Source: an uncultured Planctomycetaceae bacterium (lineage in GTDB: Bacteria > Planctomycetota > Planctomycetia > Planctomycetales > Planctomycetaceae). Taken from it: a DNA stretch of 34,214 nucleotides. Of the stretch, positions 15,282-27,353 are shown piece by piece. The translations under genes were made by a program, and so were the position numbers. The notes beneath the pieces were generated by a model, which made no database searches, was not told where the DNA came from, and saw only the letters and a program-made list of their open reading frames with translations. Position 1 is the first letter of the stretch. Every line of letters begins with the position of its first letter. The stretch lies in NCBI GenBank assembly GCA_937919915.1, contig CALFOL010000576.1, positions 1-34,214 on the forward strand. Direction: 5' to 3'.

Positions 15282-16898
15282 ATGGCAAAACAACTTTTGT
15301 TCGACGACCCGGCTCGTCTGAAACTGCAGAGTGGGATTGAAACTCTGGCGAAGGCTGTTGCTGTCACGATGGGGCCAACAGGTCGCAACGTGATCATTGA
15401 CAAAAGCTTCGGCAATCCAGTCGTCACCAAAGACGGCGTGACAGTAAGTAAAGAAGTCGAGCTCGACGACCCATACGAACACATGGGTGCCAAGCTGATG
15501 AACGAAGTGGCCAGCAAAACCAGCGATATTGCTGGCGATGGAACCACAACCGCAACCGTGCTGGCTCGAGCGATCTTTCAGGAAGGCCTGCGTGGCATTT
15601 CTCTGGGTGCAAACCCAACCGTCGTTCGTCGAGGCATCGACAAGGCTGTGGAAGTCGCATTGGAGAGCATCGAAAAGATGGCCCAACCTGTGAATTCCAA
15701 AGAGCAGGTTGCACAGGTGGGTGCCATTTCTGCCAACAACGACCGTGCTATCGGCGACATGATCGCTGATGCTATGGAACGCGTTGGCCGTGACGGCGTC
15801 ATCACTGTTGAAGAAGGCAAAGCCAACGACACAACGCTGGAATTCGCCGAAGGCATGCAGTTCGACAAGGGCTACATTTCACCATACTTCGTCACTAGTG
15901 CCGAAGATATGAAATGTGTCATGGAAGACTGCATGATTCTGCTGTTCGAAAAGAAGGTCTCCAGCCTGCGGGACCTTGTGCCGTTGCTGGAAAAAGTTGC
16001 CCAGACTGGCAAGCCACTGCTGATCGTCGCTGAAGACGTCGACAGCGAAGCTTTGACAGCACTTGTCATCAACAAGCTGCGTGGCATCCTGAAGATCTGT
16101 GCTGTCAAAGCACCGGGCTTCGGTGATCGCCGCAAAGCAATGCTGGGCGACATGGCTGTGTTGACCGGTGGAACTCTGATTTCAGAAGACCTCGGTATTA
16201 AACTCGACTCAGTCGAACTGGCTCAACTGGGTTCAGCCCGCAAGGTCGAAATCGCTAAAGACAGCACGACGATCATCGACGGTGCTGGCGATGTCGCTAC
16301 GATCAAGACGCGAGTGCAGCAGATTCGTGATCACATCGAAAAGACAGACAGCGATTACGATCGTGAGAAGTTCCAGGAACGACTTGCGAAGCTAACTGGT
16401 GGTGTTGCCGTGATTTCTGTAGGTGCAGCAACCGAAACAGAAATGAAGCAGACCAAGGCTCGTATGGAAGACGCCCTGCACGCGACACGTGCGGCTGTCG
16501 AAGAAGGCATTTTGCCTGGCGGTGGTGTTGCGTTGCTGCGAGCTGTCGAAGCTGTTGAGAAGATGAAGCTGGAAGGCGACGAAGCTCTCGGCTGTCAGAT
16601 CATCGCCAGGGCCCTGACGGCTCCTATTCGTCAGATTGCTGCTAACTGCGGCATGGACGGTGCCGTCGTCGCAGACGAAGTTCGTCAGCTCAAGGGTGCC
16701 GAAGGCTTTAATGCGGCTACTGGCGAGTACACCGACATGCTGAAGGCCGGGATTCTCGACCCAGCAAAAGTTGTTCGCAGTGCACTGTCTCACGCAGCGT
16801 CAATCTCCGGGTTGATGTTGACGACTCAGGTTCTGATTACTCGTACTGACGATGCAGATGGTGGTGCCAAAGCGAAAGTCGCTGGTGCTGTCAGATAG
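15282..16898 (+). CDS. groEL: Chaperonin GroEL (copy 2), no GGM tail
   Basis: [69 protein letters not shown]; ends [13 protein letters not shown]. Confidence 0.98.
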
Positions 16899-16975
16899 TT
16901 TGATTACCTGATCAAACGTATTCGCGTCGACTGACAGGCGGCCTCACGGCGACAGTCGACACAGGATAACAAACA

Positions 16976-17005
16976 ACGGGGCACCAACTTTGGTGCCCCG
17001 TTTTT
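16976..17005 (+). terminator. Rho-independent terminator after groEL2
   Basis: ACGGGGCACCAA-ct-TTGGTGCCCCGT followed by TTTT. Confidence 0.88.
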
Positions 17006-17018
17006 CATAAGACAGGAC

Positions 17019-17063
17019 GATACTGAACCTCGCTGACGCCACAGGGTGAGAACGTTCAGTATC
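17019..17063. promoter_or_regulatory. 10-bp perfect inverted repeat in the dnaJ upstream region
   Basis: GATACTGAAC (17019-17028) and GTTCAGTATC (17054-17063), between the groEL2 terminator and the dnaJ start. Confidence 0.5.
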
Positions 17064-17102
17064 AAAGACAATCGACAGCTCAAGCACGGACCGGAAGTGA
17101 CG

Positions 17103-18245
17103 ATGGCAACTCAGACTTGCTACTACGAAGTTCTCAGCGTGACACGCACGGCGTCTGACGGTGAGATCAAGAAGGCCTACAAGAAACTCGCAATCAAATA
17201 TCACCCTGACCGCAACCAGGGGGATGAAGAAGCCGTTGAGAAGTTCAAGGAAGCCTCAGATGCATTTGGCATCCTCAGCGACGCAACGAAACGCTCTCGC
17301 TACGATCAGTTCGGCCATGCTGGTGTGCAGGGTGCGGCGGGTCGAAGCGGCGGGGGCGGATTCAATGACGTCAACGATATCTTCAGCGCATTCGGGGATA
17401 TCTTTGAAGGGTTTGGCTTCGGTGGTGGCGGAAGAAGCCGCGGTCGCAGTGGAGCTCGGAAGGGTGCTTCGCTGGAAACCACGATCGTCCTGGAACTTCC
17501 CGAAGCCGCATCCGGATGTACGCGAGAACTGGAAGTGTCACGGCGGGAAACCTGCGAAACCTGTGATGGATCTGGTGGCAAAGCGGGCAGTCAGGCAATC
17601 AATTGCAGCACATGCGGCGGTCATGGACAGGTGATTCAGTCGCAGGGATTCTTTCGAGTTCAAACGACGTGCCCTGCGTGCAAAGGCGAAGGGAAAACAA
17701 TCAAAGACCTTTGTAACGACTGTTCCGGCAGCGGCCGCAGGATGAAAACGACGACGCTCGAAATCAACATTCCCGGCGGTGTAGACAATGGCATGCAGAT
17801 GCCGATTCGTGGCGAGGGCGAAGCTGGCGTCAAAGGTGGCCCGCGTGGTGACCTGCACGTGAACTTTAAAGTCAAAGAACATCCTCTGTTCAAGCGTGAC
17901 GGTCAGGATCTGTTGTGTCGTGTGCCGATTTCCTATTCTCAGGCAGCACTCGGGGCGGAAATCGAAGTGCCCACGCTGACCGGGCGCGAAACACTAACGG
18001 TGAAATCTGGCACGCAACCCGGCGCGATTACTCGACTTCGTCATAAGGGAATGCCTGATCCCAACGGCCGCCACAGCGTTGGTGACCTGTTGCTGGAATT
18101 CCAGATTGAGGTCCCTAAAAAAGTTGGCGCGAAGCAGGAAAAACTGCTGCGTGAGCTGGCAGAACTGGAAGAAGCGGACGTCATGCCTCAGCGGACATCA
18201 TTTTTTGATCACGTCAAGAGTTTCTTTGGTGGAGACGACGAGTAA
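17103..18245 (+). CDS. dnaJ: Chaperone DnaJ (type I, zinc-finger)
   Basis: J-domain KKLAIKYHPDRNQGD, G/F region, four CxxCxGxG-type motifs (CETCDGSG, CSTCGGHG, CPACKGEG, CNDCSGSG); start MATQTCYYEVL. Confidence 0.96.
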   Translation: MATQTCYYEVLSVTRTASDGEIKKAYKKLAIKYHPDRNQGDEEAVEKFKEASDAFGILSDATKRSRYDQFGHAGVQGAAGRSGGGGFNDVNDIFSAFGDIFEGFGFGGGGRSRGRSGARKGASLETTIVLELPEAASGCTRELEVSRRETCETCDGSGGKAGSQAINCSTCGGHGQVIQSQGFFRVQTTCPACKGEGKTIKDLCNDCSGSGRRMKTTTLEINIPGGVDNGMQMPIRGEGEAGVKGGPRGDLHVNFKVKEHPLFKRDGQDLLCRVPISYSQAALGAEIEVPTLTGRETLTVKSGTQPGAITRLRHKGMPDPNGRHSVGDLLLEFQIEVPKKVGAKQEKLLRELAELEEADVMPQRTSFFDHVKSFFGGDDE

Positions 18246-19006: not shown

Positions 19007-19333
19007 ATGCCAACCTACGAATATCGCTGTTCTGCATGTGAGCACAAATGGGAAGAGTTCGAATCGATTACCTCGAAGCCCATGGAGAAGTGTCCGTCCT
19101 GCAGGAAGAAAAAAGCAGAACGCATGATCAGCGCCGGCGGCGGCATCATTTTCAAAGGCACCGGATTCTACCAGACCGACTATCGTAGCGAGAATTATAA
19201 GAAGGGCGCCAAGGCGGAATCAAAGGCGAACGAAACGAAGACGGAATCAAAGGCGGAAACGAAGACGGAATCAAAGTCTGATTCGTCGAGCAAGGCATCG
19301 GATTCGGGTAGTTCCAGCAGTTCGAAGGACTAG
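19007..19333 (+). CDS. FmdB-family zinc ribbon protein with K/E/S-rich tail
   Basis: MPTYEYRCSACEHKWEEFESITSKPMEKCPSCRKKKAERMISAGGGIIFKGTGFYQTDYR; two CxxC knuckles. Confidence 0.92.
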   Translation: MPTYEYRCSACEHKWEEFESITSKPMEKCPSCRKKKAERMISAGGGIIFKGTGFYQTDYRSENYKKGAKAESKANETKTESKAETKTESKSDSSSKASDSGSSSSSKD

Positions 19334-19466
19334 AGCGGTTTACTTAAACGTGTGAATGCGTCGGGCTTGTGGGAGCAGGCGAGTTGCTGTCGAAAACCGT
19401 TCGCCGCCGCCACAGGTCAGCGTAATACGCTGTAGTGCATCAGCACCGTGGCTGGGGCTTCCAGCC
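19331..19466. repeat. Dispersed palindromic repeat, copy A
   Basis: tagagcggtttactta...gccacaggtCAGCGTAATACGCTGtag, then GGCTGG-ggctt-CCAGCC; matches copy B at 26481. Confidence 0.75.
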
Positions 19467-19519
19467 GCCGTCTGCCTCCGGGCACAAACCACAAAGTCAC
19501 AGCAGGAAAGTCAGATCGC

Positions 19520-24947: not shown

Positions 24948-26478
24948 ATGAATCTGCTGTTCCGAGTCCTCTACGCTCAGAAATGCACCAGCACTCACCA
25001 CATGCTGGCGATGGACGCATTGCGCTATTTACGAGCGGAGCATTCTGAGGATTGGTGTCGACTGTTCCTGACAGAAATCGAACTCTTCATAGACGGCGCG
25101 AAAGCACCGGACAAAAAGTTCAAAGACTTTCGTAATCACGTCCTGCACGTTTCAGATAACTTCTGGGGCGGCGCTGTGTCAGCGGCGGAACTGTGGTATG
25201 GGCGACTGGTCGAACAACTCAAAGCCAAAGACTGGCCGCGCGCCGTTTATTGTGCGCGCCGTTTATTGTGCGGGCGTGCTGACGTGCGGGCGTGCTGACG
25301 TGCGGGCGTGCTGACGTGCGGGCGTGCTGACGCATTACGTAACAGGCCCGTTGATGCCACTGCACACCGGCCAGACAGAAGACGAAGCGCAGGTTCACAA
25401 ATTTATCGAATGGGACACGGCAAAGATCTATCAGAAACTGGTTTATACTCATGAAGCCGCCCGAGTTCTGCAGAACTGGAGGCCGCCGGAATCCCCTGCT
25501 TCCGAAGACTGGCTGCCGCTGCTGATCACCGAAGGCGCGAAGGTCGCGCATGGTCATTATGACGTCCTGATCGACCACTACGATCCTGCGATTGGACGCG
25601 ACAAGCCCGACGAAGGCTTCGACGATGTTTCGCGGGCGAGCATTTCAACCTTACTGGGTTGGTCGATCAAAGCGATTGCGTATGTGATTGATCAGGCAAT
25701 TATGGAAGCGGCCGTTGAACCGCCCAAACGAAAAATTACCGTTGCGACTGTCCTGTCAGGATTGTCAACGCCACTGTTCTGGATCACTCGTAAACTGGCA
25801 GATCGCAAAGACCGCGACATTGTGGCTGCGATCCGGGACGAGCTGCAGGCCACTGGCAAAGTCATCGAAACACTTCCGGAAGACGACAGTATTGTGCGAG
25901 CGGCCTATGCGGAAGAAGTGCTGGGGGTTCCCGTGCAGGAGCTCGACCGCGTCCCGGTTCGTAAAGCTGGATCAAAATGGCAGCCAGAAGATGCCCCACA
26001 CGTCACAAAGATAAAGCGCCAGGCGTCAGCACCGCGACCGCCGCGGTTCTACCTGGAACTCGACAGCCCGGTTGTGGACGCCCCATCAATCGGACCTAAA
26101 ACGGCGGGGCGCCTGCATCAGATCGAAATTCACACGGTCGAACAACTGGTCAACGCGAATCCAGACGACGCGACTGATCAATTGGATGAACGCTGGATTT
26201 CTTTCGAAATCTTCAATGCCTGGCAGCAACAATCTGTGCTGACGTGCCGTGTGCCGGGACTACGAGGCCACGATGCTCAATTGCTGGTAGCCGTCGGAAT
26301 CACGCGTCCGGAAGAACTCCGGGACGCCGATGCTGACGAGCTGTTGGCAAGAGTTCTCGAATTCGCTGTTACAGAAGACGGTGAACGTATCGTCCGCAGC
26401 AGTACGCCGCCGGACATCGCAGAAGTCCGCCGCTGGCAAAGCTTCACTCAGAATTCACGCACCTTGCGAGCCGCTTAG
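24948..26478 (+). pseudogene. Putative Zn-dependent phospholipase C/S1-P1-like N-terminal region + DUF4332-like C-terminus, split by a tandem-repeat frameshift
   Basis: ORFs 24807..25298 and 25324..26478 are two halves of one gene; with one A and one B repeat unit the sequence reads KDWPRAVYCAGVLTHYVTGPLMPLHTGQTEDE. C-terminus DAPSIGPKTAGRLHQIEIHTVEQLVNANPDD is HhH/DUF4332-like. Confidence 0.8.
25238..25333. repeat. 16-bp-period tandem array: A x2 + B x4
   Basis: A = gcgcgccgtttattgt at 25238 and 25254; B = gcgggcgtgctgacgt at 25270, 25286, 25302 and (last base c) 25318. Confidence 0.97.
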
Positions 26479-26480
26479 CT

Positions 26481-26585
26481 TAGAGCAGTTTGCTTATTGT
26501 TGTGAACGGTGCTGGCTCACGGGAACCGGTTCACGCACGACGAAACGCGTCCTCCGCGGCCACAAGTCAGCGAAATTCGCTGTAG
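26481..26585. repeat. Dispersed palindromic repeat, copy B
   Basis: tagagcagtttgctta...gccacaagtCAGCGAAATTCGCTGtag; same 87-bp spacing from tagagc to the hairpin as copy A. Confidence 0.75.
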
Positions 26586-27077: not shown

Positions 27078-27245
27078 GTTCTTTGAGTTTCCTGACTGAG
27101 GTTGAAAATCTGTTTCAGTCCGCCATTCTATCACCGGTTTGCGTTTTCGGTACTGTTGACGACAGCTCACTTGATCTTCGCGGCATTCTGACAGACCGTT
27201 CTGGAGAAACGTCCGGTGCTTTCTATGGTCGTGGACGATGAGAGT

Positions 27246-27260
27246 CAGCGTAATACGCTG
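27246..27260. repeat. Dispersed palindromic repeat, core-only copy C
   Basis: gtCAGCGTAATACGCTGtag, identical core to copy A. Confidence 0.7.
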
Positions 27261-27353
27261 TAGAAGTAAGACAGCAGGATCCGAATTGCCGACGGAATCG
27301 AAAACCGTTGATTTCGAATTGCAGGACGTGAAGCTGAAAGGGTAAGACAGGCG

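Follow-up and report, generated by a model that had tools for sequence, protein, structure and literature searches.

A dispersed repeat in the window, by which we mean the whole 34,214-nt stretch of planctomycete DNA analyzed here, is very probably a non-autonomous MITE of the IS630/Tc1-mariner type. Its unit reads Y-TA-(GAGCAGTTTAC...CAGCGTAATACGCTG)-TA-R, a 100-bp gene-less core between TA duplicates, and it has sharp ends and a nearly invariant length: 98 of 115 full-length matches, and 138 of 170 copies in a larger set, measure exactly 106 bp when the outer Y and R are included. An earlier note on this DNA had described three copies of a hairpin-bearing repeat and called the family "REP/MITE-like." The MITE part of that description stands. 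The REP part does not, given that the element has a 100-bp core, imperfect terminal inverted repeats, a TA duplication, and IS630-type ends, and is not a short GTAG-tagged palindrome.

Copies in the window and the terminal hairpin

The window contains two full-length copies, A and B, and a fragment, C (Table 1). Copies A and B align over their entire 106 bp and have a common start, TAGAGCRGTTTRCTTA, 87 bp from the hairpin, just as the earlier note had read them; the hairpin sequences and coordinates that it gave for all three copies were also accurate. Copy C, which had been taken for a core copy, matches over only 21 bp and is a 3' fragment, not a full copy. The stop codon of the gene preceding copy B (26476-26478) lies two bases ahead of that copy's TAG. 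A hairpin-like motif, TGGGGCTTCCAGCC, is found 3' of copy A (window 19440-19480) and recurs, inverted, adjoining a copy at another locus (L046, 1419-1475); it occurs in only three places among the loci examined.

Table 1. Coordinates of the repeat and associated features in the window
Feature	Position	Strand	Details
Copy A, full-length with target bases	19330-19435	+	106 bp: C 19330, TA 19331-19332, core 19333-19432, TA 19433-19434, G 19435
fmdB TAG stop codon	19331-19333	+	ORF 19007-19333; T and A from target, G is the element's first base
Copy A terminal hairpin, CAGCGTAATACGCTG	19418-19432		overlaps right inverted repeat
Copy B, full-length with target bases	26480-26585	+	106 bp: T 26480, TA 26481-26482, core 26483-26582, TA 26583-26584, G 26585
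Copy B terminal hairpin, CAGCGAAATTCGCTG	26568-26582		paired change relative to copy A
Copy C, solitary 3' end, AGTCAGCGTAATACGCTGTAG	27243-27263	+	21 bp; truncated or internally deleted relic; hairpin 27246-27260 is CAGCGTAATACGCTG, identical to that of copy A

The two ends of the element, which begin GAGCAGTTTAC and CAGCGTATTAC, form imperfect terminal inverted repeats (TAGAGCAGTTTACTTATTGTTGTGGACG versus TACAGCGTATTACGCTGACTTGTGGCCG) that are identical in 17 of the 28 consensus positions (p 4e-4 by shuffling, TA excluded). Within the right end is the palindrome CAGCGTAATACGCTG, which may, speculatively, represent a doubled transposase-binding site. At locus L008 (1480-1540), a palindrome, CTACAGCGTAATACGCTGTAG, stands alone between direct repeats of CTGATGGTCCTGTTG; with its left neighbor bases it spans about 27 bp, and the arrangement resembles a minimal hairpin insertion or a tandem duplication.

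The compensatory change that had been noticed between the hairpins of copies A and B is real. At the sixth stem pair, 135 of 170 copies have T-A and another 21 have A-T, for a total of 156 Watson-Crick pairs where independence would predict 121, and this pair is the highest-scoring covarying pair among all position pairs of the element. The remaining stem pairs barely vary and so provide little information; covariation in the additional copies thus holds for a single pair, and its support does not extend to a large RNA structure. RNAalifold also proposed a body stem at columns 22-42, which we rejected since its changes are mostly one-sided.

Such a hairpin might instead belong to a structured RNA or a regulatory 3'-UTR element (an mRNA stabilizer or terminator) that is retained for its function, with no transposon involved. 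The fixed length of the repeat, its conserved hairpin with one covarying pair, and its position right after stop codons would all be consistent with such an element. However, we found no Rfam match within the window, no stem in the body that rivaled the terminal pair in an all-pairs covariation test, and no T-run 3' of the hairpins of copies A and B. Copies away from stop codons are randomly oriented, and the element is missing from the stop codons of the fmdB orthologues examined (in genomes G001, G002, G003, G004, G005, and G007). Given that the repeat also has a target-site duplication and IS630-like ends, we consider a purely functional origin very improbable, and co-option of single copies for function is possible.

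Target site and TA duplication

The TA duplication was established statistically from the flanking bases. On its left the element is flanked by T or C and on its right by G or A; in model-picked copies away from stop codons, these outer bases are correlated across 100 bp (T..G 33, C..A 14, C..G 8, T..A 2; Fisher p 3e-6). T..G and C..A correspond to the two orientations of TTAG/CTAA, and C..G corresponds to CTAG, so the outer bases come from a single target in which TA alone is doubled. In addition, about 110 of 113 copies have a G immediately before the right TA, which means that only TA is duplicated and excludes a 4-bp duplication. This flank pattern is the signature of IS630/Tc1-mariner transposition, unlike that of REP/RAYT systems. 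ISY100, a characterized IS630-family element, duplicates TA, and its transposase and some 30 bp from each end are sufficient in vitro (PMC2170065); a preference of IS630 for CTAG is stated in the title of a reference cited in that paper. Two loci (L058, 1-208; L006, 1413-1620) hold tandem copies with one common TA, as expected from insertion at the TA flank of another element.

The flanks also bear on whether the repeat could derive from an IS5-type element, as a MITE with a 4-bp YTAR duplication like MITEPsy1 of Pseudomonas syringae. MITEPsy1 is similar in size (100 nt) and in target, inserting at CTAG or YTAA and duplicating 4 nt (PMC3189936), and its ends are common with ISPsy2, which is listed, with a query, as IS5-type. 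In our element, however, a G instead of a Y precedes the right TA, so the Y is not duplicated, and the ends match IS630, unlike the GGAAGGTCTGAAAAAGCC-type ends of MITEPsy1. We therefore give an IS5-type origin next to no chance.

The mobilizer implied by the REP part of the earlier description would be a RAYT (Y1 HUH) transposase, which would spread a REP/BIME-type repeat by recognizing GTAG and a hairpin in single-stranded DNA. Our repeat does end in a hairpin whose 3' foot carries GTAG, it is extragenic and present in hundreds of copies, and Y1_Tnp genes are present in the genome to which the window belongs (G000). GTAG-tagged REPs, high-copy extragenic palindromes near GTAG, have been reported in planctomycetes too (PMC3733652). 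However, those REPs are 20-40 bp long and depend on a Y1 transposase; GTAG heads their palindromes, and a rayt gene is always located between two inverted REPs (PMC2817692), whereas the Fuerstiella unit is 106 bp long with a TA duplication, and it carries GTAR at its 3' foot, with a last base that varies with the target. None of the Y1_Tnp loci we examined is bounded by the element, so the suspected RAYT link was not borne out, and G007, with its 134 copies, has zero Y1_Tnp matches. Finally, the correlated flanks are what a single 4-bp target used in either orientation would leave, a pattern that HUH insertion does not give. Spread by a RAYT transposase is thus extremely unlikely.

Distribution in Fuerstiella and kinship with IS630 elements

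The family extends far beyond the three copies first noticed. Allowing at most one mismatch, the pattern CAGCGNANNNCGCTGTAG has 284 matches (156 + 128) in the window genome, compared to 10 for a reversed control pattern, which puts the copy number at about 270 by pattern matches, and a covariance-model scan of the same genome recovered at least 150 full-length copies. The same model found at least 150 full-length copies in each of G001 and G005, 134 in G007, 79 in G004, and 78 in G002, and it found none in G003 and G006, which belong to the same genus. The exact pattern is present in 6 of the 8 Fuerstiella genomes searched and in 0 of 50 genomes outside the genus; G172 contains many near-identical copies. 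Among named records, exact matches come mostly from Fuerstiella sp. and Planctomycetaceae MAGs. One exact 3'-end match (L237, CATMOC010000297) is on a contig assigned to an uncultured Mesorhizobium MAG; that contig probably comes from Fuerstiella and was mis-binned.

The gene preceding copy B resembles fmdB in this respect: its orthologues in G003 and G004 have no element at the stop codon. The searched Fuerstiella genomes share only about 65-77% identity, which makes empty sites unreadable at the level of single bases, and they accordingly offered diverged homologous sites without the element but no clean base-level empty site. At one locus in G005 (L114, 1332-1437), a copy directly follows a probable intrinsic terminator of the ACGGGGCACC...GGTGCCCCGTTTT type; the homologous site in the window (about 16755-17283) has the terminator and lacks the element.

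The ends of the element are related to those of IS630 elements. We scored every TA-anchored 28-mer of the examined loci, other than those in the repeat (48,781 in all), with the left-end profile, and the four best matches were all four ends of two complete IS630 elements, L068 and L072. Both are in G002 (Fuerstiella sp., JAQWOH assembly), a sister species, and each is about 1.03 kb long and flanked YTA...TAR; the first ORF of L072 matches HTH_Tnp_IS630 and the second matches DDE_3. An IS630 remnant in G005 starts TTAGAGCAGTTTACTCAT and adjoins a decayed transposase, and many more distant IS630 relatives across the family read YTA-GAGC...TAR. The MITE thus has its left end, YTAR target, and TA duplication in common with L068, L072, and their relatives, although L068 and L072 carry transposase ORFs and differ from it in length, internal sequence, and right end; the right end of the MITE resembles the IS630 ends less than its left end does.

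Complete elements of the cognate type were found in G002 only, with the remnant in G005. We did not find a cognate IS630 transposase in the window genome, a 925-contig assembly from which a collapsed copy could be missing, or in G001, G003, G004, G006, G007, and G172, several of which are copy-rich and most of which are fragmented assemblies where collapsed copies could likewise escape detection. Two DDE_3 fragments of the window genome were considered as the cognate element and rejected, as they come from another IS630 whose ends are unrelated. They lie where contigs C490 (L071, 1-192) and C447 (L281, 1-183) begin inside the 3' end of that IS630, and two such contig starts suggest that multi-copy IS elements have probably been collapsed in this assembly. 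Given the absence of a cognate transposase from the window genome and several other copy-rich genomes, we infer that the MITE is mobilized in trans: an IS630-family DDE transposase would move the core by cut-and-paste into CTAG or TTAG/CTAA targets, where the core would enter at the TA and double that dinucleotide.

Copies on stop codons

The earlier note had remarked that the TAG of copies A and B lies at or near the end of a gene, and this was a good lead, since the property is family-wide. Of the 113 copies with sufficient flanking sequence, 38 have a left TAG that coincides exactly with the in-frame stop codon of the upstream gene, compared to 2, 0, 2, and 1 in control frames and 0 in reverse orientation. 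These copies come from the window genome (28) and from other genomes (10), and their share of about 34% compares with 8% expected from the available targets. In a second count, we related occupied to available targets according to how far they lie from the closest gene 3' end and obtained 44/76 at the stop, 16/37 at 1-30 bp, 10/30 at 31-60 bp, 10/51 at 61-120 bp, 30/158 beyond, and 6/110 with no upstream 3' end. Only relative rates are meaningful in these stop-codon counts, because the gene calls rely on a simple hexamer score and the loci were chosen for holding the element. We found no report of such a stop-codon class in the literature searched.

Orientation is strongly biased at stop codons (44:0 in the second count) and even elsewhere (33:33). 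CTAG is palindromic, so a transposase choosing by the 4-bp target alone would insert both ways at C-TAG stops, and yet the orientation there is 19:0. This is best explained as loss of reversed insertions, which turn TAG into TAC, and selection against stop loss is likewise the best explanation for the orientation bias at stop codons as a whole. When only same-oriented targets are compared, 44/76 are filled at the stop and 7/37 at 1-30 bp downstream, a roughly threefold excess (p 0.003) that could reflect selection or targeting. That the element, via its tip base G and its choice of CTAR/TTAG, actively or preferentially uses TAG stops as safe sites, beyond selection against harmful insertions, seems to us rather doubtful.

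Under the preferred reading of an IS630-type MITE, selection would act as a filter on where copies survive. Insertions within genes would be removed, and intergenic ones would persist best close to gene 3' ends. At a TAG stop, an insertion would persist if the element points along the gene, because the element's first base, G, restores TAG; the opposite orientation would leave TAC and was not seen. We also considered in-frame insertion into genes, as in the Rickettsia RPE type, and rejected it: the net 102 bp keeps the frame, yet only 2 of 109 copies were called within genes.

The closest known system we compared is RUP of Streptococcus pneumoniae, a 107-bp non-autonomous element with about 108-110 intergenic copies and ends like those of IS630-Spn1, which inserts at TA (PMC2229807, PMC3049150). 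Both are small, non-autonomous, intergenic elements with IS630-like inverted ends and TA insertion. However, the Fuerstiella element differs in sequence and phylum, it has a conserved palindrome as its right end, its GC content of 56% equals that of its host and is not AT-rich, and one third of its copies lie exactly on stop codons. By functional analogy, the family is the planctomycete counterpart of RUP.

For the Fuerstiella planctomycetes, these results provide a defined high-copy repeat, with its ends, its target, and its likely mobilizer, that can be used in genome annotation. Since one end base rebuilds the target codon, a third of the copies that survive are located at gene ends, all in one orientation, and this stop-codon class shows how a parasite can become nearly cost-free.
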